Shown: positions 3,844 through 27,466 of the stretch, one piece after another
How the letters are laid out: each line of letters begins with the position of its first letter
How positions within the stretch are numbered: position 1 is the stretch's first letter
IMG/VR virus record: IMGVR_UViG_3300010885_056274
Span: 1 to 27,466 of that record
Strand: one strand, 5' to 3'
Origin: a virus
DNA length: 27,466 bases
Notes under the pieces: generated by a model
The model's input: the letters and a program-made list of their open reading frames with translations, nothing else
What the model was told of the DNA's origin: nothing
The model's database searches: none
Program-made: the position numbers and the translations under genes

Positions 3844-6800
3844 ATGATAGGGACTGGATTTGAATCTAGAGTAAAAGTACAGCAAATAGTTCAAAATCAA
3901 CTTCCAGAATTTATACTGGATGAAAGTCCTAATGCAGTTGATTTTTTAAAGCAATATTATATTTCTCAGGAATATCAAGGTGGTCCTGTAGATATTGCAG
4001 AGAATCTGGATCAATATTTGAAACTTGATAATCTTACTCCAGAAGTTATTGTAGGTAATGTTGGTCTTACTACTAATATTGATTCGAATGCCGGAATTAT
4101 CACAGTAACAAGTACGAAAGGATTTCCCCAAAAATATGGATTAATTAAAATTGATGATGAAATTATTACCTATACTGGAATAACAACAAATACATTTACT
4201 GGTTGTATTCGTGGATTTAGTGGTGTTACTAATTATCATCAAGATTTAAACTCCGAAGAATTGGTATTTTCAGAGTCGGAGAAGGTATCACATGCTGGAA
4301 AGACTTCGGTAGAAAATTTAAGTTCACTATTTTTAAAAGAATTTTATAAAAAGTTAAAAGCATCATTAACTCCCGGATTGGAGAATACTGATTTCGTTTC
4401 CAATTTAAATGTAGGAAACTTTATAAAAAATGCCAGATCTTTTTATCAGTCTAAAGGTACTGATGAATCATTTAGAATTTTGTTCAATGTTCTCTATGGA
4501 ATAACACCAAAAGTAGTAAATTTAGAAGATTTTCTAATCAAACCATCTTCTGCTGAATTTATAAGAAGAGAAGTTGTGGTAGCAGAAAGAATTTCTGGAG
4601 ATCCTACAAGATTAATTGGCCAAACAATCAAAAAATCTACAGATACTATTACTAGTGCATCAGTATCTGAAGTAGAAACATTTACTAGAAAAAATAAACA
4701 ATATTTTAAAATTTCATTTTTTGTTGGATATAATGAATTTTCTGCCGTTGAAGGTAATTTTACAATTACACCAAATACAAAATGTTTAGAAGATGTTGAA
4801 ATTGGATCTTCGGTCATTACTGTAGATTCTACAATCTCATTTCCAGAATCTGGAACTATATTTTCAGGTAATAATGTAATTTCATATACAAGTAAGAGTA
4901 TTAATCAATTTTTTGGTTGTACCGGAATTGCATATAAAATTTCTTTAAGTGATAATATAAGGTCTAATGAGATTTATTATGGATATGAAGATGGAGATAC
5001 TTCTAAGAAAGTTGAATTAAGATTAACAGGAGTATTATCCAAATTTAAACAAATTTCAGAATCCTTGAAGGTGAGTGAGGGAGATGAAATTTTTGTCAGA
5101 AATCTTGGAGAAATTATTAGAAATCCATCAGAAAATAAATCTTATAAGGAAATTTTCGCAAATTCTTGGATATACAATACAAGTTCTAGATATCAAATAT
5201 TAAGTATAAATGGATCTGCATTTGTATTAAGTAGTAAAATTGATAGGTCTAGTTTAAAAGTTGGAGATCGTGTAGAAATTGTTGAGAGGGGTACAAATAA
5301 CATACTTTCAGATCCCCTAAATTTACCTTATATTTCTATAGTTGTTTCCGATACACAGATTAATTTGAATAATCTTTCTGGATTTATTCCAGTTAATGGT
5401 CAGGAATATGATTTGAGAAGAAAAGTTAATAAAGCAAGTAGCTCAATAGTTCCAATTCAATTTGGAAATAATGCACTTCTGTCTGATATACAGAATGTAT
5501 ATAATGAAAATGATGAGTATATATACGTTGCTTCTAATTCATTACCATCAAACAATAATGGATTAATAATTCCATATGCATATCAGATAACAAAAAATAT
5601 TAATACCGTTACTGTTAGTGGACTGGGTGATCAGATTTCTAATGGAAGATACTCTACACTGTTATTCAACACTTCTGTACCATTTATTAATGGTGATCGA
5701 GTTTATTATTCTTCTCCAGAAAATTCTACTTTAGATTTAGAAACTGGAAGTTATTATGTTGAAGTATTATCACCAGGAAATAAGATAAGATTATATGGAT
5801 CGAAGGCATTTGTTGGTACAGATCAATATATAACTTTTATTAATACAAATTTTATATCCCAAACACACATATTTACCCTATATTCACAAAGGTCAGCAAA
5901 AATATCTGCCCAAAAATTACTTAGAAAATACCCATTAAGTTCAAATATTCAAAATGGTATTAATGAATTAACAATTCCAGGATCTATTGGAATGTTAATC
6001 AATGGTGTGGAAATTAAGAATTATAAATCTGATGATAAAATTTATTATGGTCCATTAGAATCAATTAAAGTATTAAATGGTGGGAATGATTATGATGTTA
6101 TCAACCCACCTTTAGTATCAGTATCTCCTGGAGAAGGAGTAAATGCATCAGTTCAACCAGTAGTTAGTGGAAGTATTAAAAAGGTCTATGTTGATAATCA
6201 AGAATTTGATATTAATAATATAATTTCAATTAATGTTACTGGTGGAAATGGTAAAGGAGTTACTTTAGAACCAATTATTAAAAAAAGAGTTAGGGAAGTT
6301 TATTTCGATGCAAGAACTACTGAAGGTATTGATATTACATATGAAACTATTAAGTTTTTAACGAATCATAATTTCACAAGTGGTGATCCAATAATTTACA
6401 ATTCAAATGGAAATTTATCTCTTGGAATAGGAACTTATAGTGGATCAAATTTTGATCAAAATATAACATTAATAAACAATGCAACTTATTATGCAAAAGT
6501 TGATAATAGTACTACAATTAAATTGTATCCTACTCTTTCAGACTACTCTTCAGGAATCAATACAATAGGATTTACTGGAATAAATGCTTCAGGTATTCAT
6601 AAGTTTAGGACTATTTCAAATAAAAAAACATTATCTGAATTAAAAGTAATTGATGGTGGAAGTGATTATACTAATAGAAAGTTAATTGTAACTCCCACCG
6701 GAATATCTACAATTAATCATACAATCAATTTCAATAATCATGGTTTCAATGATGGAGAATTAATATCGTATGATTATCAAACATCAAATATAACTGGTAT

Positions 6801-9800
6801 TTTAACCACAAACCAATATTATATTTTAAAATTTAATGATGATTCTTTTAGATTATGTGATGCTGGAGTTGCTGGAACAAATAGATCCAATTATGATAGA
6901 AAAAAATATGTGAAATTTACTTCTGCCGGTTCTGGTTATCAATATTTTAATTATCCAAAAATTTCTATTTCTATAGAATATTCTCCTGTGGGAGTAAATA
7001 CTGAGGTGCGGACAATTACTGCAACTCCAGTAGTTAAGGGAAGTATTATTGATGCTTATCTGTATGACGGTGGAACTGGATATGGATCAACAATATTGAA
7101 TTTGCACAAAAAACCATTAATAAAAATAAAAACTGGAAAAGAAGCTCAAATAACTCCATCCATTATTAATGGATCAATTGTTTCAGTAAACATAAAATAT
7201 GGTGGATATGAATATTATTCAATTCCAGATTTAATTGTTGAAGACTCTAGTGGATCTGGATCTGGAGCTGAACTTAGAGCAATTGTTACTAATAACAAAA
7301 TTAAATCTGTGAGTATCATAAATCCCGGTATTGGATATTCCAGTTCTTCAACCACTGTTAAAATTATACCATCCGGATCTAATGCAGTTTTAGATTCCAA
7401 TGTTAGATCTTTAAGAGTTAACAATAATGTAAAATTTGGAGATGAATTATTAGTTGAATCTAATATTAATTTACAATATTCAATTTGTGGATACTATGAT
7501 ACTCTGAGATTATCATTGAATGATGATGGCACTCAACATTCTCCAATAATTGGATGGGCATATGATGGAAATCCAATATATGGTGCATATGGATATTCAA
7601 ATCCAGAAGATCCTAATACACCACAAAAAGCATTGACTTCTGGATATGAATTAAATACCTCAAATCTAATTGATAGACCATTACAATTTGCTGATGGATT
7701 TTTTGTAGAAGATTATGAATACAAAAATTCCGGAGATTTGGATGAGAATAATGGAAGATTTGGGAAAACTCCAGAATTTCCAAATGGTGTTTATGCATAT
7801 TTTGCAACCATTGAAGAAGAAACCTTGAAGTCCAAATTTCCATATTTTATTGGAGATACCTATAGATCAAATACAATTAAAGAAAATTTTACATTAAATC
7901 AAAATTATAATTTCAATAATTCAAATTTATTGAGAAATACTTTCCCATATAAAATATCCGAAATATATGCCAACAATGATTTTATAATTGAATCTAATGA
8001 AATTTTAAATCAAAAAACGATTATAGAATCTGTAACAGATGGATATATAAACTCAATCGACATACTAAATTCTGGATATGATTATAAAGTAAATGATATT
8101 TTAGAATTTGATAGTACTGGGACAGAAGGTGGGGGATTGATTACAAAGGTATCATCCGTAAAGGGAAAAGATATTGTATCACTGAATACCTCTGTAGAAA
8201 CTTATAGTAATTCTATTTTTACTTGGAAATCTGCAGATACTGTAAAAGTTTCTATATCACCAAATCATACTCTATCAAATAATGATTATGTTATAATTTC
8301 TGGATTTTCTACAAGTTTATCTAAATTAAATGGTTCATATCAAATAGGCGTTACTTCTTATTATTCAAACGTATTGAAAAGTATTCCAGTATCAACTGCA
8401 GGATTAACGACCGAAATATATCTATCACAATTGCCTTCGGAGAAAGTATCTGTTGGTAGTAGTATTATAATTGGAACAGAAACTTTATCAGTTCTTGAAG
8501 TATTTAAAAATCTTAATATATTGAAGGTACAAAGAGGTTCATCTGGAGTATCTCATACTGCAACCTCTCAAGTAAACTTTATTCCAGATTCTTTTACTAT
8601 TTCTAAAAATATAGATTATTTTGAATCTAATCTTAATGATAAAGTTTATTTTAATCCAACAGAATCAATTGGGATTGGAACTCAAATTGGAATTACGTCT
8701 TCAATAACCTTCCAATTTGGTGATTCTAATACTACAAGAATTATTCCAACTCAAGCAATTTATATTGAAAATCACCCATTCATTACAAATCAGCAAGTTA
8801 TTTTTAGAAGACCCACATTAGAATATATTTCGGTATCAACTTCGCCAACTGGTACACAATTTAATATACCTTCTACCGGAAGTTCTCAAATTTTTTATGT
8901 AGTAAATAAAAATAAAAATGTTATTGGGTTAAAAACTTCCATTAATTCTTCAGAATTATTTTTTGTTAATCTTAATGGTGGAAATAATGATGATTATTAT
9001 TCTCTTGAAAGTACATATTCACAAATATCCGGAAAAGTTGAAAGAATAAAATCTACCGTTTCAGTATCAACCTCACACGAACTATCAAATGGAGATAATA
9101 TTTTACTGAAAGTAGAACCAAATCTTTCAGTTGGAATTGGAACTTCAACATCAGTATATGTAAAAAGAAGTGCAATTAATGGAAATATTTTAATCAATCC
9201 AATAGGATTCAACTCAACAGGTATTAATACCTCGACAAGTACAATTACAATTACTTCTCACAATTTAAATACTGGTGATAAAATATCTTATTCTGCAGAT
9301 TTGGTTGCATCTGGATTATCATCCGATTCATACTATGTTTATAAAATTAATGATAACCAAATTAAACTTTCGGAAACATATTTTGATTGTAAGAATGATC
9401 CACCAATTACAGTAAGTATTGCAAGTACTGGAGGAAAAAATCAATTTATTTCATTAATAAATCCTCAAATTAAATCAATTAAAAGTAATAATTTAGTATT
9501 TAATTTAAGTGATTCATCTTTGACTGGATATAAATTTAAAGTTTATTATGATCAAGAATTTAAAAATGAATTTGTTTCTACCGCAAAAACTACTGGATTT
9601 ACACTTTCTGGTATAGGAACAATTGGAATTTCTTCTATAGCATCACTTACTATTAATTATGATTTATCACTGCCAACAAAATTATATTATAATTTAGAAA
9701 AAAGTGGGCATATAAGTACTTCCGATATTTCTGTAAATAATAATTCTGAAATTTTATTTGTAGATAGTGCATATGATTCAAGTTTTAATTATAATATTTT

Positions 9801-12800
9801 TGGAGTGGGATCTACCACATTCAGTTTTTCTTTGAATAGAATTCCAGAAAAATTATCATATTCCCAAAATGAATGCAATATTTTAGAATACACTACAAAT
9901 TCTTTATCAGCAAAAGGACCAATTAATAAAATTAATATTGTTTCTGGCGGAACTGATTATAAAAAATTACCTACATTTAGTGGATCCAATTCTATTGAGG
10001 GCAAAGACGCTTATCTTATTCCAAAATCAAATACGATAGGAAATATAAGAGAAGTCAGAATTACTAATGAAGGATTTGAATATTCTTCAGATAAAACATT
10101 ACAACCATTTGCTTACATATCACCATTAATTACAATAGAAAATTCAGATACTATTGGCATTGTTACTGTAACCGATGGTGGGACAAACTACATAAGTCCA
10201 CCGTCAATAGTAATTGTAGATACTATAACTGGGAAAAAAATTGATAGTGGAGTATTACAAGCAAAACTAGCAAATAATTCTATTTCTTCAGTAGACATAG
10301 TGCAAAATCCAAAGGGGTTACCTTCCACAACTGTAAAATTGTCTTCAACAAATAATACTAATGGTGTTAGTATACAGTCCGTAGAATCATCCTCTACTGG
10401 AATTTTTACATGTTATATAACAACCCCAATATTGGGATACTCTACAGCACCGTTCAGTGTTGGCAATAAAGTTTTTGTTGAGGGCATAAAAAAAATTGGA
10501 TCTGACGGGACAGGATTTAATTCTGAAGATTATGGATATGAATTTTTAACTGTATCCGGATATCAAGCAACTAATCCAGATAAAGTTATATTTAATATTT
10601 CCAATTTAACATCAAATACCGGATTAGCAAATCAAATTCAAGATTCTTTTGCAACTATTGTAAATTCCAAAAATTATCCCAGCTTTAAAGTAACTCAAAT
10701 ACCTTCATATTTTTTAATTGGTGAAAAAATTATTTCAAACGATATTGAAAGAGATTTAATTATTACAGAGAGTACTAAGACTTTTATCAAAGTATTTGGT
10801 TCTTATGAGTTATCATTAGATGAAGTTATTAAAGGTAAGCAATCTGGAAATATAGCAACTATAAAAAAAATCGAAAACAATACAGGATTATTTGAGATTA
10901 ATTACTCAACTAAAAAAACTATCGGATGGACAAATGATATTGGAAAATTGGATTATGACAACCAATCAATACCAGATAATGACTATTATCAGAATCTTTC
11001 ATATACAGTAAAAAGTCCCATTCAGTATGAAGATCTAAAAACTCCAGTTAATAGTCTTCTTCATACCAGTGGATTAAAAAACTTTGCAGACACTGGAATT
11101 ACATCTACTGCAAGTTCAGAAATATCAGGAAATACTGTAGATTCACTTATTATAGATCTAATTAATGAAAAAAGAGTCGATACAGTTTATAATTTTGACT
11201 TAGTTAAAGATATTGATGTATTAGAAAATTCTTCCAAGACTTTAAAATTAAAAAATATAACATTGACAGATTATATCAAATGTGAGAATAACGTTGTTTT
11301 GGGAATTGACAATATAAATCGCCAATTTTCCAATTTAGAAACAGAACCCAGTGAATATTTGAATATTCTCAAACTGGGATATAATGATTCATACAATAAT
11401 CTAATATTCAGAATTTCTAATTTAGATAATTCTCAAATTCAATTTACAGAATTGGTAGTATTGAATAATACAATCGATACCTTCCTATTAAATAAGAATT
11501 CCATATCCAATACTGGTGATTTATTTGGAGAATTTTCAATATTTACTGACCAATTCAATGATTCATATTTAAGATTTACTCCAACTAATCCATATGATAT
11601 TGATTATGATTTAAAATCTATCAAAACTACGTTTAATACAATTCTTCCAGGAATTGGTACACAATCCATAGGATTTGTGGACTTAACTGGGTTGAATATT
11701 GGTGTGCAATCTGGAATAACTACATCAATTGTATCAGCACAAACTAGTAAATTAAAATCTTTATATGCAGATGTACAAGTAATTGACACCATAACAAATG
11801 AAATGACTTTTGTTGAATTATATTTGGCACATGATGGTACAAATACTTATATTTCAGAATATTATGTTGACTCAGAATCAGAAACTGGCAATTATTCTGG
11901 AAATTTTATAGGATCATTTAGTTCAACAATATCTTCAGGAATATTATCTCTAAAATTCAATAATACCAGCACACATCAAGTTAAACTTAGATCAAAAATT
12001 GTTGGATTTGGATCAACAGCAGTTGGTGTTGGCACTTATAGATTTAAAAAATCTGGACAAATTGGTGGAAATGAAAGAAGTGTAAAATATGAATCACAAT
12101 ATCAGTCTAATGTTTCAACTGCATCAACAGATATAATTTTATTAAATAAAAATAATTTTATTGCACTCAAATCATTAGTTAAAGTGAGTTTTGGATCAAC
12201 CGTCTCTTTACATCAAGTTTCGTTACTTCAAGATACCAATAATATTTTTGTAGAGCAATCTGCATTCCTTTCTGCTGGAAGTACTACCGGTATTGGATCT
12301 TTTGGTGGAGAATATTCTGGAAGTGATTTCATATTAAAATTCTATAAATCGCCAGAAGTATCCAATAATCTTGAAATTTCATCATTCAACCAATGCATTT
12401 ATACTACAATTGATGATATCAATATTCCACCAGATTTAATTTATGGAACTTTAACAGATTCGATTCAAGTTAATTCTTACAATGCTCTAAATGGCGATAG
12501 AATTAATAGAACTGCATTTACTATGACTACTAATGATGGATATCCAATTTTTGCTCAAACTTTTGATCCATTGGATGCATCAGTATTAAATTTATCAACT
12601 GGGTTATTTACAATAGACAATCATTTCTTCAGCAATGGTGAAAGATTAGTATATACTCCAAAATCAACTTTTATTGGAGTTGCCGCCAGTTCTATTATGG
12701 TTGGAATATCGTCACTTCCATCAGAAGTTTATGCTATTAGAGAATCTGCAAATACTTTTAGATTGGCACTTACAAAGAATAATGCTTTATCGGGAATTGG

Positions 12801-15471
12801 TGTAGTATTTTCTTCCGGTGGTTCTGGAAATGCACATCAACTTGAAATGTTCAAGAAAAATGAAAAAGCACTTATTACTTTAGATAATGTAGTTCAATAT
12901 CCATTAATAAGAACTCCAATTGCTCATACCTTATCTGGAAATGGGGGGGGAATTTCCATTGCATCTTCAATATTTGCTCTAAGTGGAATATCTACAATAG
13001 TTCCAAAAGATATTCTTAAAATTGATAATGAATATATGAAAATTGAAAATGTTGGGATAGGTACTACAAATAATGGACCCATCACAAATAGCGGATCAAT
13101 TTCTTTAGTACAAGTTTCTAGAGGATTTGTGGGATCATCTGCATCTACTCATACTGATTCTGCAATAGCAAGAATCTATAAAGGTTCTTATAATATTGTC
13201 GATAATAAAATTCATTTTGCAGAAGCACCTAGAGGAAATCCTCAGATAAGTTTTAATGATGGTAATCTACCATTCCAAACTTCAGATTTTAGTGGAAGAG
13301 TATTTTTGAGAAATGATTATGATACAAATGTGGTTTATGATGATATTTCCAATCAATTTACTGGAATAGGTAGAACCTTCACATTAACTATTGGTGGAAT
13401 TAATACGGTCGGATTGGGAAGTACTGGTGGAAATGGAATTTTATTCATCAATAATGTTTTTCAGACACCAACAACAGATAATAATCCAAACAATAATTTT
13501 AAAATTATTGAGAATTCTATTGCAGGAATTACGAGTGTAGTATTTTCTGGAATTGAAGATCCACAAACTAAAAATATAATAACATCAAAGTATGATGTAA
13601 ATCAAAATCAAACTCCAAGAGGTGGAATAATAATTTCTTTCGGTTCATCTACTGGTTTAGGTTATGAACCTTTAGTAGGAGCATCAGTAACTGCTAAAGT
13701 TGGTGCTGGTGGATCAATTATTTCAATTGGTATTGGAACTACTGTAGGAAATTATGGATCTGGATATAATGGATTAGTTTCTATAGGAGTATCAGTTTAT
13801 GAAAGTGGACATACTGGTGCAGCTGCATCAATAACTGCATCAGTAGGGGTGGGTGGTACATTATCTTTCCAAGTAGTAGGTGGTGGAACTGGTTACACAA
13901 ATCCCAAAATATTTGTTTCAGAACCTTCTTATGAAGATCTTGAAGTTGTTGGAGTGTCTAGATTAGGTATTGGATCAACAACATCTACTGGAACTGGACT
14001 TTTGATGAATGTTGTGGTTGGAGCAAGTTCTACTACTGGAATTGGATCTACTTATTTTGAAGTTACTGGATTTAATATCAATAGACAAGGATATTCATTC
14101 CAACGTGGAGATGTATTTAAACCTGTAGGATTAGTTACTGATAGGAGATTAGCATCCCCATTATCAGAGTTTACTTTAACTGTTCTCGATACTTTTACAG
14201 ATTCTTTTGCTTCTTGGCAATTTGGCGAACTTGACTATATCGATTCGGTTAAAAAATATCAAGATGGGAGTCGTCAGAGATTTCCACTATTTTATAATGG
14301 CGATTTGCTCAGTTTTGAAAAAAATGATGATTCGGATCCTTTATTGGAATTGGATAAATGTCTATTAATATTTGTTAATGGAATTATTCAAGAACCTGGA
14401 TTTGCATACGAATTTGAAGGCGGAACATCGGTGAAATTTACTACAGCACCAAAAAGAGAAGATAATGTTGCAATATTCTTTTATAGGGGAACAAAGGGGG
14501 GAGACAGTGCTCTGATTACAAACGTCAATCAATCATTAAAAGAGGGAGATACTGTTCAAGTATTAAAAAATAATAGTATTCCAGGTACTGTTACGCAAGA
14601 TCAAAGAACTATAACTAATTTAAATTATTCTGATAAATTTGAAACAGATTTATATTCTGGTCAGGGAGTAGATATTAATAATTATAAACCATTAAGTTGG
14701 TTAAAACAGAAAATAGACAGAGTTGTTAATGGTCAAATAGTTTATAAATCAAGAGATTCAATTGAATCTCAAGTATATCCAACTGCAAATATCATAAGAT
14801 CTTTTTCATCTACAGATACTGAAATTTTTGTAGATAATGTTCAATTTTTTGATTCTGATATCAATTTGCTATCTGGCGACACATTTGATGCTTTAATTGT
14901 AAATGGAATTTCTACAACTGCACAATCCTCAGTAGAATTAATTTCAAAAATTAATTCAGTTGACGGATTCTCAGGAATTATAACTGGAATAACAACTACA
15001 ACAGGTACTTTAGGAAATCCTTTAGCAATTAAATTTTTCCTAAAATCTGATACTGGATCGTTTACTGGATTAACCACAGGATATCCAATTTATATTTTCG
15101 ATACTTGTGTCGGAAATGGAGTTACTTCTATTAATAATTCAAATTCTTCCGTGGTTGGTATTGGATCATCCTTCTTAGATAATATATATCACATACATCA
15201 ATTTGTTCCATTTGCATCTAATGCTAGTATTACTTGCAATATTCATTCATCATCTTCAATAGTTGGAATTGCAACCACCGGAAATGTATCAAATCCTTTA
15301 GGAAAATTCTCTTGGGGAAGAATGACCGGATTTACCAGATCAAGTTCACCAATTTCTATAGGAGTTTCTGGAAATACAGTAACTTCGGGATTGTCTACAT
15401 TTGCAACAATTCAAAGAAGAGGTACTGGATTGAGACAAACTGGATCTTTAATTAAAGGTAATATTATCTAA
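3844..15471 (+). CDS. Giant modular baseplate-associated protein, 3,875 aa, in the gene 7 position
   Basis: One uninterrupted frame of 11.6 kb starts one base after gene 6. In T4, gene 7 (1,032 residues, the wedge scaffold) lies between genes 6 and 8, so a gp7-equivalent role is inferred from position, helped by the non-repetitive N-terminal 300 residues (for example LKQYYISQEYQGGPVDIAEN and SFYQSKGTDESFRILF). Beyond that the chain is mosaic. It has Gly-Gly-x-Gly-Tyr beta-repeats at about residues 740-790, 930-950, 1023-1195, 1400-1450, 2028-2178 and 3259-3432. It has a YHYH-family domain at 1220-1343, at least seven copies of an H-x-x-x-x-x-G-D/E module between 836 and 3000, and CxRG-type modules near 84 and 319. 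Two LFVNG-type segments lie near 3180 and 3510. The C-terminal 120 residues (GKFSWGRMTGFTRSSSPISI, then TIQRRGTGLR) resemble ends of cyanophage structural proteins as I remember them. GC is about 26% in samples. The virion role is likely, the exact one unknown. Confidence 0.85.
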   Translation: MIGTGFESRVKVQQIVQNQLPEFILDESPNAVDFLKQYYISQEYQGGPVDIAENLDQYLKLDNLTPEVIVGNVGLTTNIDSNAGIITVTSTKGFPQKYGLIKIDDEIITYTGITTNTFTGCIRGFSGVTNYHQDLNSEELVFSESEKVSHAGKTSVENLSSLFLKEFYKKLKASLTPGLENTDFVSNLNVGNFIKNARSFYQSKGTDESFRILFNVLYGITPKVVNLEDFLIKPSSAEFIRREVVVAERISGDPTRLIGQTIKKSTDTITSASVSEVETFTRKNKQYFKISFFVGYNEFSAVEGNFTITPNTKCLEDVEIGSSVITVDSTISFPESGTIFSGNNVISYTSKSINQFFGCTGIAYKISLSDNIRSNEIYYGYEDGDTSKKVELRLTGVLSKFKQISESLKVSEGDEIFVRNLGEIIRNPSENKSYKEIFANSWIYNTSSRYQILSINGSAFVLSSKIDRSSLKVGDRVEIVERGTNNILSDPLNLPYISIVVSDTQINLNNLSGFIPVNGQEYDLRRKVNKASSSIVPIQFGNNALLSDIQNVYNENDEYIYVASNSLPSNNNGLIIPYAYQITKNINTVTVSGLGDQISNGRYSTLLFNTSVPFINGDRVYYSSPENSTLDLETGSYYVEVLSPGNKIRLYGSKAFVGTDQYITFINTNFISQTHIFTLYSQRSAKISAQKLLRKYPLSSNIQNGINELTIPGSIGMLINGVEIKNYKSDDKIYYGPLESIKVLNGGNDYDVINPPLVSVSPGEGVNASVQPVVSGSIKKVYVDNQEFDINNIISINVTGGNGKGVTLEPIIKKRVREVYFDARTTEGIDITYETIKFLTNHNFTSGDPIIYNSNGNLSLGIGTYSGSNFDQNITLINNATYYAKVDNSTTIKLYPTLSDYSSGINTIGFTGINASGIHKFRTISNKKTLSELKVIDGGSDYTNRKLIVTPTGISTINHTINFNNHGFNDGELISYDYQTSNITGILTTNQYYILKFNDDSFRLCDAGVAGTNRSNYDRKKYVKFTSAGSGYQYFNYPKISISIEYSPVGVNTEVRTITATPVVKGSIIDAYLYDGGTGYGSTILNLHKKPLIKIKTGKEAQITPSIINGSIVSVNIKYGGYEYYSIPDLIVEDSSGSGSGAELRAIVTNNKIKSVSIINPGIGYSSSSTTVKIIPSGSNAVLDSNVRSLRVNNNVKFGDELLVESNINLQYSICGYYDTLRLSLNDDGTQHSPIIGWAYDGNPIYGAYGYSNPEDPNTPQKALTSGYELNTSNLIDRPLQFADGFFVEDYEYKNSGDLDENNGRFGKTPEFPNGVYAYFATIEEETLKSKFPYFIGDTYRSNTIKENFTLNQNYNFNNSNLLRNTFPYKISEIYANNDFIIESNEILNQKTIIESVTDGYINSIDILNSGYDYKVNDILEFDSTGTEGGGLITKVSSVKGKDIVSLNTSVETYSNSIFTWKSADTVKVSISPNHTLSNNDYVIISGFSTSLSKLNGSYQIGVTSYYSNVLKSIPVSTAGLTTEIYLSQLPSEKVSVGSSIIIGTETLSVLEVFKNLNILKVQRGSSGVSHTATSQVNFIPDSFTISKNIDYFESNLNDKVYFNPTESIGIGTQIGITSSITFQFGDSNTTRIIPTQAIYIENHPFITNQQVIFRRPTLEYISVSTSPTGTQFNIPSTGSSQIFYVVNKNKNVIGLKTSINSSELFFVNLNGGNNDDYYSLESTYSQISGKVERIKSTVSVSTSHELSNGDNILLKVEPNLSVGIGTSTSVYVKRSAINGNILINPIGFNSTGINTSTSTITITSHNLNTGDKISYSADLVASGLSSDSYYVYKINDNQIKLSETYFDCKNDPPITVSIASTGGKNQFISLINPQIKSIKSNNLVFNLSDSSLTGYKFKVYYDQEFKNEFVSTAKTTGFTLSGIGTIGISSIASLTINYDLSLPTKLYYNLEKSGHISTSDISVNNNSEILFVDSAYDSSFNYNIFGVGSTTFSFSLNRIPEKLSYSQNECNILEYTTNSLSAKGPINKINIVSGGTDYKKLPTFSGSNSIEGKDAYLIPKSNTIGNIREVRITNEGFEYSSDKTLQPFAYISPLITIENSDTIGIVTVTDGGTNYISPPSIVIVDTITGKKIDSGVLQAKLANNSISSVDIVQNPKGLPSTTVKLSSTNNTNGVSIQSVESSSTGIFTCYITTPILGYSTAPFSVGNKVFVEGIKKIGSDGTGFNSEDYGYEFLTVSGYQATNPDKVIFNISNLTSNTGLANQIQDSFATIVNSKNYPSFKVTQIPSYFLIGEKIISNDIERDLIITESTKTFIKVFGSYELSLDEVIKGKQSGNIATIKKIENNTGLFEINYSTKKTIGWTNDIGKLDYDNQSIPDNDYYQNLSYTVKSPIQYEDLKTPVNSLLHTSGLKNFADTGITSTASSEISGNTVDSLIIDLINEKRVDTVYNFDLVKDIDVLENSSKTLKLKNITLTDYIKCENNVVLGIDNINRQFSNLETEPSEYLNILKLGYNDSYNNLIFRISNLDNSQIQFTELVVLNNTIDTFLLNKNSISNTGDLFGEFSIFTDQFNDSYLRFTPTNPYDIDYDLKSIKTTFNTILPGIGTQSIGFVDLTGLNIGVQSGITTSIVSAQTSKLKSLYADVQVIDTITNEMTFVELYLAHDGTNTYISEYYVDSESETGNYSGNFIGSFSSTISSGILSLKFNNTSTHQVKLRSKIVGFGSTAVGVGTYRFKKSGQIGGNERSVKYESQYQSNVSTASTDIILLNKNNFIALKSLVKVSFGSTVSLHQVSLLQDTNNIFVEQSAFLSAGSTTGIGSFGGEYSGSDFILKFYKSPEVSNNLEISSFNQCIYTTIDDINIPPDLIYGTLTDSIQVNSYNALNGDRINRTAFTMTTNDGYPIFAQTFDPLDASVLNLSTGLFTIDNHFFSNGERLVYTPKSTFIGVAASSIMVGISSLPSEVYAIRESANTFRLALTKNNALSGIGVVFSSGGSGNAHQLEMFKKNEKALITLDNVVQYPLIRTPIAHTLSGNGGGISIASSIFALSGISTIVPKDILKIDNEYMKIENVGIGTTNNGPITNSGSISLVQVSRGFVGSSASTHTDSAIARIYKGSYNIVDNKIHFAEAPRGNPQISFNDGNLPFQTSDFSGRVFLRNDYDTNVVYDDISNQFTGIGRTFTLTIGGINTVGLGSTGGNGILFINNVFQTPTTDNNPNNNFKIIENSIAGITSVVFSGIEDPQTKNIITSKYDVNQNQTPRGGIIISFGSSTGLGYEPLVGASVTAKVGAGGSIISIGIGTTVGNYGSGYNGLVSIGVSVYESGHTGAAASITASVGVGGTLSFQVVGGGTGYTNPKIFVSEPSYEDLEVVGVSRLGIGSTTSTGTGLLMNVVVGASSTTGIGSTYFEVTGFNINRQGYSFQRGDVFKPVGLVTDRRLASPLSEFTLTVLDTFTDSFASWQFGELDYIDSVKKYQDGSRQRFPLFYNGDLLSFEKNDDSDPLLELDKCLLIFVNGIIQEPGFAYEFEGGTSVKFTTAPKREDNVAIFFYRGTKGGDSALITNVNQSLKEGDTVQVLKNNSIPGTVTQDQRTITNLNYSDKFETDLYSGQGVDINNYKPLSWLKQKIDRVVNGQIVYKSRDSIESQVYPTANIIRSFSSTDTEIFVDNVQFFDSDINLLSGDTFDALIVNGISTTAQSSVELISKINSVDGFSGIITGITTTTGTLGNPLAIKFFLKSDTGSFTGLTTGYPIYIFDTCVGNGVTSINNSNSSVVGIGSSFLDNIYHIHQFVPFASNASITCNIHSSSSIVGIATTGNVSNPLGKFSWGRMTGFTRSSSPISIGVSGNTVTSGLSTFATIQRRGTGLRQTGSLIKGNII
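6067..7430 (+). repeat. Gly-Gly-x-Gly-Tyr beta-repeat array in the giant protein
   Basis: Protein-level repeats with a shared pattern: a beta strand, then GG/AG-x-GY or a close variant, then a Pro/Ser-rich strand, then a Gly-rich turn leading to the next strand. Clear copies are VLNGGNDYDVINPPLVSVSP, VIDGGSDYTNRKLIVTP, FTSAGSGYQYFNYPKISIS, LYDGGTGYGST, IKYGGYEYYSIPDLIVED and IINPGIGYSSSSTTVKI. Two H-x-x-x-x-x-G-D/E modules are interleaved. The copies are strongly diverged at DNA level. Similar stretches lie at 8042-8190, 9927-10370 and 13618-14140. Confidence 0.75.
7501..7872 (+). other. YHYH-family domain inside the giant protein
   Basis: Residues 1220-1343 of the giant protein carry the landmarks of the YHYH domain: GWAYDGNPIYGAYGY, LDENNGRFGKTPEFPNG, VYAYFAT and FPYFIGDTY. 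The name-giving Tyr-His-Tyr-His of bacterial members is Tyr-Ala-Tyr-Phe here, so both histidines are absent. The domain's function is not established. It falls between a Gly-Tyr repeat array and a further Gly-Tyr repeat, which fits insertion as a module. Confidence 0.75.
9927..10370 (+). repeat. Second Gly-Tyr beta-repeat array in the giant protein
   Basis: Copies visible at about residues 2028-2178 are IVSGGTDYKKLPTFSGS, ITNEGFEYSSDKTLQPF and VTDGGTNYISPPSIVIVD, followed by a decayed copy (IVQNPKGLPSTTVKLSS). The pattern is the same as in the array at 6067-7430. Confidence 0.7.
12943..12950 (+). repeat. Run of eight G in the giant gene
   Basis: A G8 homopolymer (12943-12950) sits in a very AT-rich gene and encodes Gly-Gly within GNGGGIS. 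It is the longest G run I noticed; the next are six (14496-14501 and 16204-16209). A slip of one base would shift the frame at residue about 3035 and remove the last 840 residues. Confidence 0.85.
13618..14140 (+). repeat. Gly-rich Gly-Tyr beta-repeat array near the giant protein's C-terminus
   Basis: Residues about 3259-3432 are rich in Gly, Ser, Val and Ala with repeated GIGT/GIGS turns. Repeat copies include STGLGYEPLVGASVTAKVG, NYGSGYNGLVSIGVSV, VGGGTGYTNPKIFVSEP and NINRQGYSFQRGDVFKP. The VGAGG and VGVGG turns separate the strands. It is the most Gly-rich part of the protein. Confidence 0.7.
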
Positions 15472-15513: not shown

Positions 15514-17061
15514 ATGTCAGCAATTGTAACAGATCAATTTAGAATTTTGAATGCTAATAATTTTGTTGACTCTGTAGTAAATACTGCAAATTCATACTAT
15601 GTATTTGTTGGACTTCCAAATCCGGATCCAGAATCGATTGGTTTTGGTAGGGCAGATGACTGGAATACTGATATTCCAGATCCAATCGATAACATTCAAT
15701 ATTTAAATCATTATCGTGATACTTCTATTTTTGGTAAAAAAATTACTAGTTCAAATATTAGAAGAGTTATAAGAAGAATTGATTGGACTGTGAATGTAAA
15801 ATATGAAATGTATAGGCATGATTATAGTATTTTAAATCAGTCGCCAATATCAAACTCAAGTAGACTTTATAGTGCTAATTATTATGTAATGAATAGTGAT
15901 TATAAGGTTTATATTTGTATTGATAATGGTTCTTCTGGGGTAAATCCTAAAGGAAATGGTTCTAAGGATGAACCAACATTTACAGATTTAGAACCATCTG
16001 CAGCTGGAGTAAGTGGAGATGGATATTTATGGAAATATTTGTTTACCGTTTCTCCAAGTGATATTATAAAATTCGATTCTACCGAATATATTACCATTCC
16101 CAATGATTGGAGAACTACATCAGATTCTCAAATTGTTTCAGTTAGAGAAAATGGAGATTCAACTTTAAATAATAATCAGATTAAAAAAGTTTATATTGAA
16201 GATGGGGGGAAAAATTATAGTTCTGGAGAAGTTAATATTCTTGGTGATGGTAATGGTGGAAAGGTTTTAATCAATGTTGATAGTAGTGGATCAATAATTT
16301 CTACTACAGTAACTTCTGGTGGTAGTGGATATACTTATGGAATAGTTGATTTGGGGACTCTGCAACCTCCAGGAAGTATACCATATCCAGCAAAACTTAT
16401 ACCAATTATTCCACCATCAAAGGGACATGGTTATGATCTCTATACAGAACTAGGTGCTGATAAGATATTAATATATGCCAGATTTGACGATTCTACAAAA
16501 GATTTTCCAATTGATACCAAATTTTCCCAAATTGGTATTTTAAAAAATCCAACTTCATATAGTTCCACTTCAATTTTTACTCAAAATCAATATTCTTCAC
16601 TTTATTCTATTAAACTTACATCAGACTTTAATGGAACACCAGTTGTTGGTGATGAAATTTCACAAACAGTAATTGGAGGAACTGCAAAAGGATATGTTGC
16701 ATCTTACGATAGTACTACAAAAGTTTTAAAATATTTTAGAGATAGATCTTTATATTTTGGTGCAACAGGCAATAGTGATGAAACTGACTACATTACAGTT
16801 TCTACTGATGGTAAGGCATTAGAATTTGAATCTTCCACAAATACAATTCTTCCATATTCTGCATCTATTGATAGAACTTTTGGTACTGATAAAGTTACTA
16901 TTGGAACAAAAGTTATAGATTTGGGAGCAACATTTACTGGAGGTCTTGCAAATCCTGAGATAAATAAAGAATCGGGAGACGTTATCTACATCGATAATAG
17001 ACCTTTAGTTTCTAGAAGTTCTAGACAAAAAGAAGACATTAAAATTATCCTGGAATTTTAA
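15514..17061 (+). CDS. 8: Baseplate wedge subunit gp8
   Basis: This 515-residue protein corresponds to T4 gp8 (334 residues), a wedge component that binds gp7 and gp10 in T4. The N-terminal half is the recognisable gp8 core: TDQFRILNANNFVDSV, NSYYVFVGLPNPD, RRIDWTVNVKYEMYRHDY, NYYVMNSDYKVYICIDNG and GDGYLWKYLFTVSPSDIIKF. The extra length comes mainly from an inserted Gly-Gly-x-Gly-Tyr repeat block (about residues 223-280) and a further C-terminal domain after it. The start follows a perfect late promoter; the ribosome binding site is weak (AAAAAGACG). Its stop is three bases before the next ATG. The assignment to gp8 is firm for the first 230 residues; the C-terminal half has no T4 counterpart that I can see. 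Confidence 0.92.
   Translation: MSAIVTDQFRILNANNFVDSVVNTANSYYVFVGLPNPDPESIGFGRADDWNTDIPDPIDNIQYLNHYRDTSIFGKKITSSNIRRVIRRIDWTVNVKYEMYRHDYSILNQSPISNSSRLYSANYYVMNSDYKVYICIDNGSSGVNPKGNGSKDEPTFTDLEPSAAGVSGDGYLWKYLFTVSPSDIIKFDSTEYITIPNDWRTTSDSQIVSVRENGDSTLNNNQIKKVYIEDGGKNYSSGEVNILGDGNGGKVLINVDSSGSIISTTVTSGGSGYTYGIVDLGTLQPPGSIPYPAKLIPIIPPSKGHGYDLYTELGADKILIYARFDDSTKDFPIDTKFSQIGILKNPTSYSSTSIFTQNQYSSLYSIKLTSDFNGTPVVGDEISQTVIGGTAKGYVASYDSTTKVLKYFRDRSLYFGATGNSDETDYITVSTDGKALEFESSTNTILPYSASIDRTFGTDKVTIGTKVIDLGATFTGGLANPEINKESGDVIYIDNRPLVSRSSRQKEDIKIILEF
16180..16350 (+). repeat. Gly-Gly-x-Gly-Tyr repeat pair in gp8
   Basis: Two copies, KKVYIEDGGKNYSSGEVNIL and STTVTSGGSGYTYGIVDLG, are separated by a Gly-rich turn (GDGNGGKVLINVDSSG). 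The pattern is the same as in the giant protein and gp14. Confidence 0.75.
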
Positions 17062-17064: not shown

Positions 17065-20000
17065 ATGGCACAAAAAACAGATTTAAATATCAGTCCATAT
17101 TATGACGATTTTGATGCTGAAAAAAACTTTTATAAAGTACTGTTTAATCCAGGGCGGCCAATCCAAGCAAGGGAATTAACAACTTTACAATCAATTTTAC
17201 AAAATCAAATAGAATCTTTTGGTAGTCATATGTTTAAAGAGGGATCAATGGTGATCCCAGGAAATATTGCATATGACGGACAATTCTATGCAGTAAAATT
17301 AAATCCAACTAACTTTGGAATTGATATTTCACTCTATATTGATAAGTTCTTAGGTAAAAAAGTAGTAGGACAAGTATCAGGAACGACAGCAATTATTCAA
17401 TATGTATCTTTACCTGATAATATTAATGTCGAAGATTTGACCATATATGTAAAATACATAGATTCTGATAATAATTTCATATTCAATCAATTCCAAGATG
17501 GGGAATCTTTGCTTGCAGAAGAAAATATAACTTATGGAAATACTACAATTAATGCAGGTACACCTTTCGCATCTTCAATTTCATTAAATGCAACTTCAAT
17601 AGGATCTGCGGCTTCTATTGGGAATGGTGTATATTTTATTAGAGGTTATTTTGTAAATGTAACTAAGCAGACTTTAATCTTAGATAATTATACAGATACT
17701 CCATCATATAGAGTTGGATTAAAGATTGATGAATTATTAATTAATCCAAAAGATGATGATTCTCTATATGATAATGCAAAAGGATTTACAAACTACGCAG
17801 CACCAGGTGCCGATAGATTAAAAATTAAGTTAACTTTGACTAAAAAGTTATTAAATGATCTTAATGACACCGATTTTGTTGAACTATTAAGAGTTCAAGA
17901 TGGAAAAATTAAAAAAATTGAATCAAAAACTAATTATAATCTAATTAGAGATTATATGGCTGATAGAACATATGATGAATCTGGTGATTATGCAGTAACA
18001 CCATTTACAGTCTCTGTTCATAATTCTTTGAATGATAGATTAGGTAGTAATGGATTATTCTTTGATAATGAAACTACTGATCAAAATAATACACCATCAA
18101 ATGATTTGATGGGAGTCAAAATATCTCCTGGCAAAGCATATGTGAGAGGATATGATGTAGATAAAATTTCAACAACAATTATTGATGTAGAAAAACCAAG
18201 AGAAACTGAAACAATACCAACAATGAATATTCCCTTCGAAATGGGAAATATTTTAAGAGTTAATAAGGTATCAGGAACGCCAAAACAGGGAGAAAGAGTA
18301 GAATTATACAATGAACTGAATAGTAGTGGAGATATAATAGGATATGCTAGAGCATACAGTCTCAGATTAACTGATGCAGCATATAGTGGAAATGCATCTA
18401 AATGGGATTTATGCTTATATGACATACAAACTAATACAAAATTAATTTTAAACAAAAATATAACTACCACCGAACTACCAAAATCATCTTTTGTAAAAGG
18501 TAAGAGTAGTGGTGCTAGTGGGTATGCGACTGCAGATGGTGGGAGTTCTGCAACAATATACTTGAGTCAGACTTCTGGAAAATTTTCTCAGGGTGAGCAA
18601 CTAATAATAAATGGTGTAGATTCTTCCACGTCTATCAAATCGATCACATCGTATGGGACTCAGAACATAAAATCAGTAAAACAAACTGCACCATTTGGTG
18701 GAGGAGATTTTAATGCAAATGCTTTCCTCGAAAGGTTTAATTTTCAAAATAATGTAAGTAAAGTAACTATTACTAGTGGGGGCAATGTAACTTCTGCAGG
18801 GAAAGTGTTTAGTGGTGTACGTGAAAATACGATTATTAGATATCAGAAACAAGGTTCTTCAGTAGAAACATTCAACAAAATAACATCTGTTTCTGCTACA
18901 GGATTATCGATGACTGTTGCAGCAATTACTTCTGTTCCTGGAGTTTTTGATGGTGATCTACCTTCAGGTACAATTGAACCAAATATTCAAATTGGAGCAC
19001 CGATTGTAAGAAATGAATCTACTGGATACTTATATGCCCAATTACCAGATTCAAATATATCTTCAGTAAATCTTTCAGATTCATTATTGACTATTTCTGT
19101 ACAAATTACAGGAAAAACAATAACGGGTGGCCAATTAACTCTCAATTCTTCAGACATTAGTACTATTGGAATTTCCAGTGCATTTTTTGCAGCATTTGAC
19201 GAAGAAAGATATTCAGTTCATTATTCTGCGGGAGGAATTGGTACAGTAACACCAGATTCTTTTAGTCTGAATTCAAATATAGTTACTATTAGTGGATTAA
19301 CCGATGGTAGTAATGCTACTGTAAACGCAACACTAATTAAAAATGGAATTCAAAGTAAGAAAAAGGAATATAATAGAAGTAAAATATCGAATGTTACACT
19401 TTCAAAATATTCACAATCAGGAAGTTCTAACAATTCTTCAATAAATGATGGATTAACATACAATCAATTTTATGGATTGCGAGTTCAGGATGGGGATATA
19501 AGTTTAAATTATCCTGATGTATGTAAGGTTTTGGCAGTCTATGAATCTTATGATTCGTTACCCCCATCACTAGATACAGTACAATTTACGGCCAGTGCCG
19601 ATGTTAGTACTAATGCAATAATTGGCGAAAATATAATTGGAAATACTAGCAAAGCAATTGCAAGAGTTGTTTCTAAACCATCTCTACATGTTTTGGGAAT
19701 TGTTTACCTAAATACAGAACGTTTTTCTGATGGAGAAACTGTAAAGTTTAAAGAATCAAATATAACTGTTGATATTCAATCTATTACTGTAGGAAATTAT
19801 AAAGATATTACATTCACATATCAATTAGATAAAGGTCAGAGAGATCAATATTATGATTATTCTAGATTGGTTAGAAATAAAAATACACCAGAACCTTCCA
19901 AACAATTACTAATAGTATTTGATTATTACTCAGTACCATCGAATGATACTGGGGATGTATTCACGGTTTTAAGTTATGATCAAGAAAGATTTTTAAATGA

Positions 20001-23000
20001 TATTCCATCAATTGGACCTAGAAACGTAAGGGCATCCGATACACTGGATTTTAGACCAAGAGTATCTGTTTTTACCGTTACAAATAAATCACCATTTGAT
20101 TTTGATTCAAGAGACTTTAATTCAAATCCAAAGGTTATTTTATCCTCAAATGAAAGTTCATTAATTGGATATGACTATTATCTCCCAAGAATAGATAAAT
20201 TATATCTTGATAAATTTGGTACTTTTATTCTGGAAAAGGGTGTATCATCGAAAAAACCTAGAGTTCCAAATAAAAAAGGCGATGTGATGGATATTGCAAC
20301 CATTACTTTACCACCATATTTGTACCACCAATCAGATGCTGTTGTCACTCTAATTGACAATAGAAGATTTACTATGAGAGATATTGGAAAAATACAGGAA
20401 AGAGTTTCCAATTTGGAAAGAGTTACTTCATTGTCATTACTAGAAGTAAATACACAAACACTCCAGATTCAAGATTCTGATGGAAGAAATAGATTCAAAA
20501 CCGGATTTTTTGTTGATGACTTTAAAGATTATACCTCAATTAATAGAAGATTGTCCTCAATTCAAATTAACAGTGAATCTAATGAATTAATTCCCATCAT
20601 TAGTAGAAACTCCCTCAAGTCGCAACTTGCACCAGCAACTGCACTTATTGATGGGCAATTAGATCTATCAGTTAATTATGATCTACTAGATCCAAATGTG
20701 CAAAAAACTGGAAATGCCGTAACTTTAAAATATAACTCAGTAGGTTGGATTGAACAACCATTCGCAACAAGAGTTGAGAATGTCAATCCCTTCAATGTTA
20801 TCGTATATATTGGGGACATTAAATTAGATCCAGACAGAGATTATTGGATTAGAACTATCCAACTTCCAGATAGGCATGTATCAAACACGATAGCAATGCC
20901 ATCGATAAATCTCACAAATAATGTTTCAAATAATGTTGTCAATACTACCAATAGTTCCACCAATACAACTGTTGAGAATGTTGTTTATGGTAGAGGAAAT
21001 TGGAGAGAAACAACTACTACTGATCCAACATATTCCCTATCAAGTACATCATCATCGTCAACATCATCAAGTACTGCAAATAATGGCACTATAGCGGATT
21101 ATGATACTACAATTCAAAATATAAAAGTAGCTTCTGCTGAAGAGAAGTTTATAAGATCCAGAAACATTGAGTTTTCAATAACAAACCTGAAGCCATCTAC
21201 ACAATTTTATCTATTCTTTGATTCAAATAGTGCAGTCGATTTTGTTCCAAAATTAGTAGAAATTTCTAATGATACTACATTAGCAAATTATGGTTCTTCT
21301 GGATCGTTTGTTGTTGGTGAAGAAGTTGTTGGTACTAGCAATGGTCAGAATTTAATTTCATTCCGTGTAGCAAGTGCAAATCATAAGTATGGTGCATTTA
21401 ATTCGCCATCTTCAACATATATGATAAATCCATATATTAAAAGTGAATCATTGCCATCAACATATAGTTCATCTTCAAAAGTATTGAATATTGATACATA
21501 TTCATTATCACAAGAAGCACAAGGAAAATATTCTGGTTATTTGGTCAAAGGAATGAGATTGGTTGGACAAACCAGTGGTGCAGTTGCATACGTTAAAGAT
21601 CTCAGATTAATTGCTGATAATTATGGAGATTTAATCGGTACAAGTTTCTTAAAAGATCCAAATACAACTCCACCACCTTCGGTTAGAATTGAAACTGGAA
21701 CTAAGACTTTCAAACTATCTTCAAGTTCAACTAATGCTCTTGGTCGTCCCGGAAGTAATGCAATTTCTTATGCAGAATCAAATTATAGTGCTGATGGTAT
21801 GGTTGAGCAGTGGGAAAATTTGATAACCACAACTATAAGAAATACTGATATAAACACAACTACAGTTACAACTACCAATACAACAAATATAGATCTGAAT
21901 GCTGCTACTACAACAACAGAAACAAGGTATGTGGACCCTCTCGCACAATCATTTGTTGTTGGTGGAAATGTTGAAGCACCTTCACCAACAAATACCAATG
22001 ATGATGTGAATGGTGCCTTCTTAACTGCGGTAGATTTGTACTTTGGAGCAAAGGATGAAGGAAATGCTCCAGTAAAAGTAGAGATAAGAACAGTTGAGTT
22101 AGGAACTCCAACAAGAATTAGAATTGGAAGAGACGTTACATTGAGACCAGATCAAGTTAATATATCTGATGATGCAGAGACTCCAACTAAAGTTACTTTC
22201 CCCGAACCAATTTATCTAGCACCCGGAAGAGAATATGCAGTAGTAATTATTTCGGAAACAAGTGATCAATATGAACTGTGGTGTGCAACAATGGGTGAGA
22301 AGACTGTAAATACTAAGTCATTACCAGATGCTGATAGTGTAAAGTATAGTAAGCAATTCTCGATGGGAAGTTTATTCAAATCCCAGAATGGATCTATATG
22401 GACAGCAAACCAGTATCAGGATCTTAAATTTAAACTTTATAAAGCAGAGTTTACATCACCTACTGGAACTGCATTTTTCTACAATCCAACATTGGATAAG
22501 AGTAATGGATACGTTCAAAAGTTGCCGAATAATCCATTAAAAACTTTACCAAAAACCGTTACTATCGGATTTACAACATCAACTAGTCTTTCATCAGCAT
22601 TAACAAATGGAAGAAAAACTGTAGGATCACAATCTGCTACTTATGGATATATTGTTGGTTCTGGAAGTTCTGTTGCATCAGTAGGACTTACTACTGGTGG
22701 AAGCAATTATGCTACTGATACTAATGTAGATACATTCAATATAATTGGAACAGGTTCTGGACTTGTGTTGAATATTAGTGCGACAAATGGTGTAATTACT
22801 GGAACTCCAACAATTGTAAGACGTGGGAATGGTTATGCTGTTGGTGATGTTGTTGGTATTGTAACCTCCACGGTATCTTCTAATACTGGTACTGGAGCAA
22901 ATATTACTATCAGCGGAATTACTGGATTAGATACATTACAACTTTCGGGAGTTCAAGGGAAAACCTTCAATGTTGGCGCCGGATTGAGTTATTATAATGA

Positions 23001-24770: not shown

Positions 24771-24798
24771 AAAAGTAGATCTAAAATCTAAAGAATAA

Positions 24799-26386: not shown

Positions 26387-27466
26387 TGGCACTCAATCCC
26401 TTCTTTTTACAAGGATCTCCTGGAGAACAAAGACTCATTCAGGAGTTAATAAATGAACAATTGAAAATTTATGGTGTAGAAGTATCTTACATACCAAGAA
26501 AATTTGTAAGAAAAGAAACTATCATAAGAGAAGTTACATCTTCAAAATTTGATGATAATTTTGCATTGGAAGCTTATGTGAGTAATTATGAAGGATATTC
26601 CGGATCTGGAGATATTTTAACAAAATTTGGAATGAATTTGAAGGATGAGATAACTTTAATTATTTCTAGAGAGAGATTTGAGGATTTTATATCACCTTTT
26701 TTAGCGGTTGATGGAGGATATGAATTATCAACCAGACCAAGAGAAGGAGATATTGTATATTTCCCTCTAGGTAGAAGATTGTTTGAAGTTAAATTTGTGG
26801 AACATGAGAAACCATTTTATCAATTAGGAAAAACTTATGTCTATGAATTGCAATGTGAACTATTTGAACTTGAAGATGAGGTTGGTGGATTTGGCAATTT
26901 AAATGCAACTGTGCAAGATATTGATAGTACTTTAGAAAATCAAGGATATATTACTTCTTTACAATTATTTGCTACTGGACAAACAGCAATTGCAAATTGT
27001 GGTATTAGAAGTGGATATGTTAGAAAAGTTACGTTGACTAATGATGGTTATGATTATGTGGGAATTCCAACGGTAGGGTTTACTCCATCACCTGCTGGTG
27101 GAACTACTGCTTCAGCAGTTGCAATAACAAAATGTTCTGGTGGTGTTTGTTCAATTAAAGAAATTTTATTGGTAAATCCAGGATCTGGATATACTGTAGC
27201 ACCTTCAGTTACAGTTTATTCAAATGGCAGCGGCGCTGGAGCCGAAGCTAAAACAGTTTTGGTCAAAGATTCTTATGGAATTGGACCCGTTCAAATTACA
27301 TCTATTGGTGCTGGATATGTAAATCCACCAACAGTGTCATTCAGTTCTCCAGGATTAGGAAATATTGCACAAGGTAGATGTATTGTTGGAACTTCTGGAA
27401 GTATATCACAAATTCTTATTGAAGATGCTGGAACTGGATATTCTTCACAACCAACTATAACTATAG
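26386..27466 (+). CDS. 14: Neck protein gp14, 3' end beyond the window
   Basis: 360 residues are visible and the frame is still open at the right edge. The first 180 residues are the gp14 core: MALNPFFLQGSPGEQRLIQE, YIPRKFVRKETIIREVTSSK, DEITLIISRERFEDF, RPREGDIVYFPLGRRLFEVK and FVEHEKPFYQLGKTYVYELQ. T4 gp14 has 256 residues; this one is already over 100 longer because residues from about 210 on form a Gly-Tyr beta-repeat array. The gene starts by overlapping gene 13 by one base. In T4, gp14 and gp13 together form the neck ring to which the tail is joined. The family call is secure; the total length cannot be given. Confidence 0.93.
   Translation, partial: MALNPFFLQGSPGEQRLIQELINEQLKIYGVEVSYIPRKFVRKETIIREVTSSKFDDNFALEAYVSNYEGYSGSGDILTKFGMNLKDEITLIISRERFEDFISPFLAVDGGYELSTRPREGDIVYFPLGRRLFEVKFVEHEKPFYQLGKTYVYELQCELFELEDEVGGFGNLNATVQDIDSTLENQGYITSLQLFATGQTAIANCGIRSGYVRKVTLTNDGYDYVGIPTVGFTPSPAGGTTASAVAITKCSGGVCSIKEILLVNPGSGYTVAPSVTVYSNGSGAGAEAKTVLVKDSYGIGPVQITSIGAGYVNPPTVSFSSPGLGNIAQGRCIVGTSGSISQILIEDAGTGYSSQPTITI
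27013..27466 (+). repeat. Gly-Tyr beta-repeat array in gp14 extension
   Basis: Four copies are visible before the edge: KVTLTNDGYDYVGIPTVGFT, ILLVNPGSGYTVAPSVTVYS, QITSIGAGYVNPPTVSFSS and ILIEDAGTGYSSQPTITI. Spacing is about 30-40 residues, with Gly/Ala-rich turns between copies. The array is the cleanest in the window and serves as a reference for the decayed copies elsewhere. Confidence 0.8.

Follow-up and report, generated by a model that had tools for sequence, protein, structure and literature searches.

Repeat units in the baseplate and neck proteins

We analyzed a 27,466-base virus record (IMG/VR IMGVR_UViG_3300010885_056274; hereafter, the window) and focused on a short beta-repeat with a GGxGY motif that recurs in its baseplate and neck proteins. 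The window belongs to a Kyanoviridae-like cyanophage. Synechococcus phage S-SRM01, with identical gene order, was the nearest named relative, followed by Prochlorococcus phage P-SSM2 and then others. Every annotated gene lay on the forward strand, and Pfam and PHROGs identified gp25, gp6, a giant protein at the gp7 position, gp8, a DUF4815/VrlC protein, a gp13-like protein, and gp14, which is cut by the 3' end of the window. Homology of gp8 with T4 gp8 was supported by PF09215 (E 9.8e-13), phrog_438, and matches of PDB 1n7z at both ends (the N part and the C terminus). The DUF4815 domain was found in the VrlC protein (PF16075, E 2.3e-59; phrog_358; solved relative 9euf, E 9e-41), and the core barrel of gp14 was homologous to T4 gp14 (PF11649, E 1.5e-29; PDB 9mkb, E 3.7e-23; Foldseek, 1.7e-5; phrog_460).

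The repeat unit comprised approximately 38-45 residues in the order strand-GGxGY-short strand-strand. AlphaFold models were obtained for a complete gp14 (homologue L002, 61-sequence alignment), in which the repeat region had a predicted local distance difference test score (pLDDT) of about 92, and for giant residues 691-1419 (53 sequences), in which the repeats were also confident (mean pLDDT 86). In these two proteins the strand register was alike, each unit showing 8-9 residues in a strand, then GGxGY (one bridge residue), a gap, a 4-6-residue strand at PxVxI, a second gap, and 6-7 strand residues. The matching strand patterns of gp14 and the giant fit the single module proposed in a first-pass annotation of the window, which had described the repeat in the giant, gp8, DUF4815, and gp14 proteins. 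Conservation fell on Gly, Tyr, and Pro, which suits turns, and no conserved polar cluster was present. The repeat is best explained as an old, homologous three-stranded beta unit, with a long strand ending at GGxGY, a short PxVxI strand, and a long AxAxAxV strand.

The repeat had no name in the libraries searched. No Pfam family matched the repeat consensus at the cut-off or more than one of 58 separate units, and NCBIfam gave no match. A text search for a published name (GGSGY) returned nothing relevant, which does not prove that the repeat is unnamed. The repeat also differs from Ig-like domains: no Ig family was among the Pfam matches of the window proteins, the consensus gave just Big_12 (E 3.8), and Foldseek gave no significant Ig-like match. 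In BFVD, the gp14 model also matched structural, tail-fibre, and baseplate proteins of cyanophages. Apparent PDB matches of the unit profile to BURRH and RFC were repeat or composition artefacts.

The features are listed in Table 1. The copy numbers given in the first-pass annotation held for the giant (about 12 copies as a repeat, against a motif count of 14 GxG/D/NY sites with repeat-like flanks), for gp8 (two), and for gp14 (four, the last being truncated); they needed revision for DUF4815, where one clear and one weak copy replaced the expected two. Counts of the motif itself were two in gp8, two in DUF4815, and four in gp14. The gp8 units sit downstream of the T4-like N part and ahead of the conserved last 34 residues. 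In gp14, the match with T4 gp14 was limited to residues 11-158 of the window protein; in the complete cyanophage proteins (about 465 residues in relatives), the repeats are inserted, together with a second module, after the barrel and ahead of the conserved final 30 residues. Since T4 gp14 has no units and the window protein has four, the latter is gp14 with an extension. Mean identity within gp14 was 76% in the core versus 64, 58, 38, and 47% in the successive units.

Table 1. Repeat units, module B copies, and associated features in the window
Feature	Residues	Window position	Strand	Evidence
Giant protein, gp7 position	3,875 aa	3844..15471	+	phrog_2885 baseplate wedge subunit; synteny with P-SSM2 gp7
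Giant repeat unit	736-769	6049..6150	+	25.4 bits; strands in model
Giant repeat unit	931-950	6634..6693	+	10.9 bits
Giant repeat unit	1023-1055	6910..7008	+	8.4 bits; inside segment linked to gp14 at 99%
Giant degenerate repeat unit	1066-1083	7039..7092	+	4.1 bits; strand pattern
Giant repeat unit	1110-1148	7171..7287	+	39.6 bits; above all controls with gp14-only profile
Giant repeat unit	1151-1181	7294..7386	+	27.7 bits; above all controls with gp14-only profile
Giant YHYH domain (PF14240)	1228-1327	7525..7824	+	E=3.1e-28; directly after repeat array
Giant repeat unit	1400-1431	8041..8136	+	31.5 bits
Giant repeat unit	2025-2058	9916..10017	+	34.9 bits
Giant repeat unit	2066-2085	10039..10098	+	14.2 bits
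Giant repeat unit	2103-2130	10150..10233	+	20.9 bits
Giant module B (SGxxA type)	2324-2354	10813..10905	+	12.0 bits, best control 7.5; hhalign to gp14 61.9%
Giant, two C-terminal repeat units	3282-3379	13687..13980	+	hhalign to gp14 91.7%; 10.0 bits
gp8, two repeat units	218-283	16165..16362	+	93.8% to gp14; 13.3 and 10.9 bits
gp8 module B	374-407	16633..16734	+	hhalign 87.4% to gp14 module B
DUF4815/VrlC module B	476-523	18490..18633	+	12.1 bits; 93.8% to gp14
DUF4815/VrlC module B	855-907	19627..19785	+	13.3 bits; 92.1% to gp14
DUF4815/VrlC repeat unit	1868-1911	22666..22797	+	11.0 bits; hhalign 95.6% to gp8, 93.6% to giant
DUF4815/VrlC second, weak repeat unit	1916-1948	22810..22908	+	4.5 bits here; 12.0 bits in S-SRM01
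gp14 repeat unit 1	209-250	27010..27135	+	profile; pLDDT about 92 in L002 homologue model
gp14 repeat unit 2	253-294	27142..27267	+	profile searches
gp14 repeat unit 3	295-334	27268..27387	+	profile; fastest-evolving unit, 38% mean identity
gp14 repeat unit 4, cut by window end	336-360	27391..27465	+	profile; complete in relatives, then module B and conserved tail

The second module (module B) has the form F-x-GE-x-V-x-G-SGATA-x-V (GExVxGxxSGATA) and follows the repeats in gp14, where it occupies residues 369-434 of the L002 protein. It was retained in S-PM2 gp14 (60 bits), which has no GGxGY array. Because module B is also common to these proteins, they draw on a small shared kit rather than on one part. 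Segments resembling E1_FCCH at about residues 820-925 and 1465-1508 of the giant (window positions about 6301-6618 and 8236-8367) are possibly a third small beta module; the Pfam match at 1465-1508 was weak, and a Uba6 chain matched the model of giant residues 691-1419 with a Foldseek probability of 0.96 over 121 columns but an E-value of 0.27. The GWAYDGNPIYG core of the giant YHYH domain was nearly invariant in 53 relatives.

Relationship of the copies between proteins

Profiles were searched against 142 fragments of 120 residues from the window and 1,420 shuffled or reversed control fragments; fragments were used because a 40-residue model run on whole giants loses matches to length correction. 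The profile suggested in the first-pass annotation, built from the four window gp14 copies alone, proved too narrow to link the proteins, and a profile of the gp14 family was required. This gp14-only family profile found all four window gp14 units and placed two giant units (17.8 and 15.2 bits) above every control (best 14.6). Seven more giant sites, both gp8 sites, and one DUF4815 site fell below the best control, yet were among the best real matches. S-SRM01 showed this pattern too, P-SSM2 showed it for gp14 and the giant, and T4 did not show it. After iteration with relatives, approximately 11 giant units scored 8-40 bits (E down to 3e-12). One shuffled control in which a GGSDY motif had formed by chance then reached 20.4 bits, so a single short match in gp8 or DUF4815 is not sufficient by itself.

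Comparison of profile with profile (hhalign) was decisive. Among the 28 pairs formed by eight repeat segments from the four families, 13 reached at least 90% (median, 89%), including gp14-giant (99.0%), gp14-gp8 (93.8%), gp8-DUF4815 (95.6%), and DUF4815-giant (93.6%). The direct link between gp14 and DUF4815 was weak (36%) and became firm via gp8 and the giant. By comparison, 96 control pairs with other segments of these proteins gave at most 22.2%, and 56 reversed-family pairs at most 6.5%. PHROG profiles agreed independently, as window gp14 matched several giant, tail-fibre, and baseplate families, and window gp8 matched the gp14 family.

These results bear on the possibility that the repeats represent convergent low-complexity beta sequence rich in Gly, Thr, and Ser rather than homologous units. 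The unit is indeed short and biased in composition, and single gp8 and DUF4815 matches do not clear shuffled controls by themselves. However, profile pairs scored 90-99% where reversed versions of equal composition remained at or below 6.5%, the strand register was shared between gp14 and the giant, and independent PHROG profiles agreed; we therefore regard convergence as very improbable. As judged from family profiles, one homologous module is present in all four proteins, as had been proposed, and the claim of homology stands.

Distribution and inheritance of the repeat

In a survey of 12 phages, every member of Kyanoviridae tested carried the unit in the gp7-position protein or neighboring giant proteins; it was also found in gp8 of several phages, in VrlC of several, and in gp14 of most. 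Copy number in gp14 was zero in S-PM2, two in S-ShM2, three in S-RIM8, and four in S-SM2, while the giants retained the module. The number of virion proteins involved had been underestimated at four, as S-SRM01 further carried the unit in a distal tail fibre, S-SRM01 and P-SSM2 in a baseplate/tail-fibre protein, and S-PM2 and S-SRM01 in the hub lysozyme; the tail sheath had it in Xanthomonas phage X1 (38.7 bits) and, weakly, in S-PM2. The unit was never seen in gp13, gp6, gp15, gp19, gp20, or gp23 where these were tested. The expectation that the T4 counterparts would be free of repeats was confirmed: no unit was present in T4 gp5-gp15, and a scan of whole phage records agreed with the protein survey and likewise found none in T4.

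The repeat consensus matched 21 PHROGs, 18 of which carry a connector, tail, baseplate, or virion structural annotation and three of which have no assigned function. The repeat was contained in the profiles of phrog_460 (Hc2/gp14), 438 (gp8), 2885, 708, 32294, and 719 (baseplate wedge), 701, 4406, and 19630 (virion structural), 5342 and 17885 (tail fibre), and 1922 (hub lysozyme), which the consensus matched with E-values of 1.5e-8 to 3e-27. These PHROGs are, however, whole-protein families, and the repeat is neither named nor isolated in any of them.

Bacterial genomes also encoded the unit. A contractile particle gene of Nostoc foliaceum encodes a tail sheath (PF17482; L368:4065-6164) with six GGxGY units ahead of the conserved C-terminal sheath domain. 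Two units each were found in a lambda-type tail tube from a Pseudomonas ovata genome (L406:4662-5387) and in structural cement proteins from Acetobacter and Komagataeibacter genomes (L371:4803-5546 and L413:4752-5750), all presumably prophage genes. Other bacterial proteins with the unit had signal-peptide-like starts, some with multicopper-oxidase domains. Among the latter, proteins of Neobacillus, Anaeromyxobacter, and Cellulomonas resemble those of the window in carrying GGSGY units in long tandem arrays, but differ in being cellular and probably extracellular rather than virion parts.

A possible solved relative was found in the tailspike depolymerase Dpo31/Dpo36 (PDB 28lx, 28mg, 8ck1), in which residues about 445-513 read ITIDDAGAGY and VSAITITDGGSGYSG at two GGxGY sites. 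The match was weak (gp14 family profile, E 0.031; repeat hidden Markov model, 2.2e-4 in a PDB-sized search space, with no match to the reversed stretch). The depolymerase has just two units, within a tailspike, and did not appear among the Foldseek matches; it offers a lead to a solved structure, not a demonstration.

To follow the history of the copies, we compared identities among 68 gp14 proteins with four units and nearest neighbors among 85 units from the window and the named phages. Units at the same gp14 position in different phages were 57% identical, as against 33-34% for different positions, whether within or between phages. Identity between gp14 and giant units was 31.4% within a phage and 30.4% between phages, and none of the 85 units had its nearest neighbor in another protein of its own phage. 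Copies across the genes of one phage were thus not more alike than copies between phages, as those of a recently mobile module would be. The position-orthologous identities indicate that the units have kept their places throughout the divergence of these phages. In cyanophages, the copies are inherited vertically at fixed positions, and gains and losses of units separate deeper clades. Recombination between genes, which the first-pass annotation had raised, is compatible with the presence of the unit in several neighboring genes and its absence from one of them in some phages, but these identities and neighbors lead us to reject recent exchange among the genes of one phage as extremely improbable; an ancient duplication between genes may have occurred.

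Possible role of the repeats

Strung in tandem, the units would form beta-rich arms, placed where virion proteins tolerate additions beyond their assembly cores. The gp14 array separates the barrel of the core, which closes the neck ring, from the conserved tail at the C terminus; the equivalent part of T4 gp14 is the gp15-contacting region, residues 178-256 of the T4 protein lying outside the barrel and contacting gp15 (PMC12270204). Given this placement between barrel and tail, the repeats and module B are expected outside the neck ring, and by analogy with the gp14 hexamer, 24 units would surround it. The gp8 array is likewise flanked by the T4-like part and the conserved C terminus. Such accessory arms or spacers would lengthen and cover the neck, baseplate, and fibres (in some phages also the sheath, tube, and head cement), and they may contact neighboring subunits or the cell surface weakly.

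We consider it reasonably probable that the repeats are outward-facing accessory arms or spacers. Their placement beyond the T4-like cores of gp14 and gp8, their faster evolution than the gp14 core, their wide spread over virion proteins, their vertical inheritance, and their absence from T4 fit this reading. Several observations weigh against this reading. Since no solved structure was found for these cyanophage proteins, we infer both surface exposure and arm function. In the Foldseek search against the PDB, the T4-like core of the gp14 model alone was recognized, no solved counterpart of its repeats was found, and the giant segment had no significant match; the core of the gp14 model was itself of low confidence (pLDDT 40-60). 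Most giant units are in one baseplate protein, where some could be buried, and the module is not confined to the periphery, a lambda-type tail tube and hub lysozyme having it too. The lower conservation of the repeats could simply reflect relaxed constraint.

Alternatively, each unit might bind a cyanobacterial surface sugar or a common decoration, making the whole particle sticky. During coevolution of S-PM2d with Synechococcus, mutations arose early in open reading frames (ORFs) 081, gp8, 084, and 088 and late in 086 (PMC9910659); ORFs 081, 084, 086, and 088 carry the module, and a tailspike depolymerase of known structure has two probable copies in its chain. S-TIM4 evolution experiments likewise yielded mutations in tail-fibre and baseplate genes (PMC6224464). 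Both sets of mutations are compatible with a role in host contact but are confounded by gene length, the mutated S-PM2d ORFs being huge. Receptor or glycan binding seems unlikely, as the conserved residues look structural and the unit is also found in tail tube and hub proteins. Nor was there support for the earlier suggestion that the repeats have a single task in common, for instance attachment to one decoration or glycan, because the module comes and goes independently in different proteins.

The repeats of different proteins might instead pack on one another or on neighboring subunits, stiffening the neck and baseplate of a large virion. In several surveyed phages, gp7, gp8, and DUF4815 of one assembly carry the module together, and beta arms are known to augment neighboring sheets in phage tails, as between the Milano tail-terminator arm and the topmost sheath subunit (PMC10491603). 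This structural role is doubtful, if slightly less so than glycan binding: S-PM2 gp14 has no repeats while the other proteins of this phage retain them, copy number in gp14 varies from 0 to 4, and the repeats evolve faster than the core.

As accessory arms, the repeats find their closest known kind in the promiscuous Ig-like accessory domains of phage virions, which are likewise all-beta modules outside the assembly core on many virion proteins of unrelated phages, and for which weak cell-surface binding or particle stability has been proposed (discussed for tail sheath proteins; PMC9230969). The present unit differs in its size (approximately 40 residues), its three strands, its tandem arrays of up to six, and its GGxGY signature, and its cyanophage copies are old and vertically inherited. 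More tentatively, the repeat might be a general-purpose building element of virions in many tailed-phage lineages, added with tunable copy number to almost all outer layers, from neck, baseplate, and fibres to sheath, tube, and head cement: an analogue of the Ig-like domain with another fold, which cyanophages would have inherited and not shuffled.

Phages of the Kyanoviridae are abundant in the sea, but their baseplate giants and VrlC proteins are mostly unannotated; one module explains part of the giant gp7-like proteins, VrlC, gp8, and gp14 together. The repeat profile flags likely virion proteins and adds to the promiscuous virion modules a non-Ig member that, in cyanophages, is inherited and not traded between genes. 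The prediction is that a difference confined to gp14 repeat number should alter the neck surface of a phage but leave its assembly unchanged.

The window contained no tRNA or RNA features in the searches made. A partial gene at 3-482 resembled phage glycosyltransferase families (phrog_34859, 4e-5; phrog_1574, 2e-83), and an S-adenosylmethionine decarboxylase (PF02675, E 6e-28) was encoded at 670-1188, just upstream of the baseplate genes and at the identical position in S-SRM01. A protein of the LtfC-like/L-shaped tail fibre assembly family (phrog_3304, 6e-34) was encoded at 24799-25143, followed by a small variable gene (25143-25544) between DUF4815 and gp13, whose S-SRM01 counterpart (213 aa) has an internally duplicated TFKxDVYxDGDL segment.

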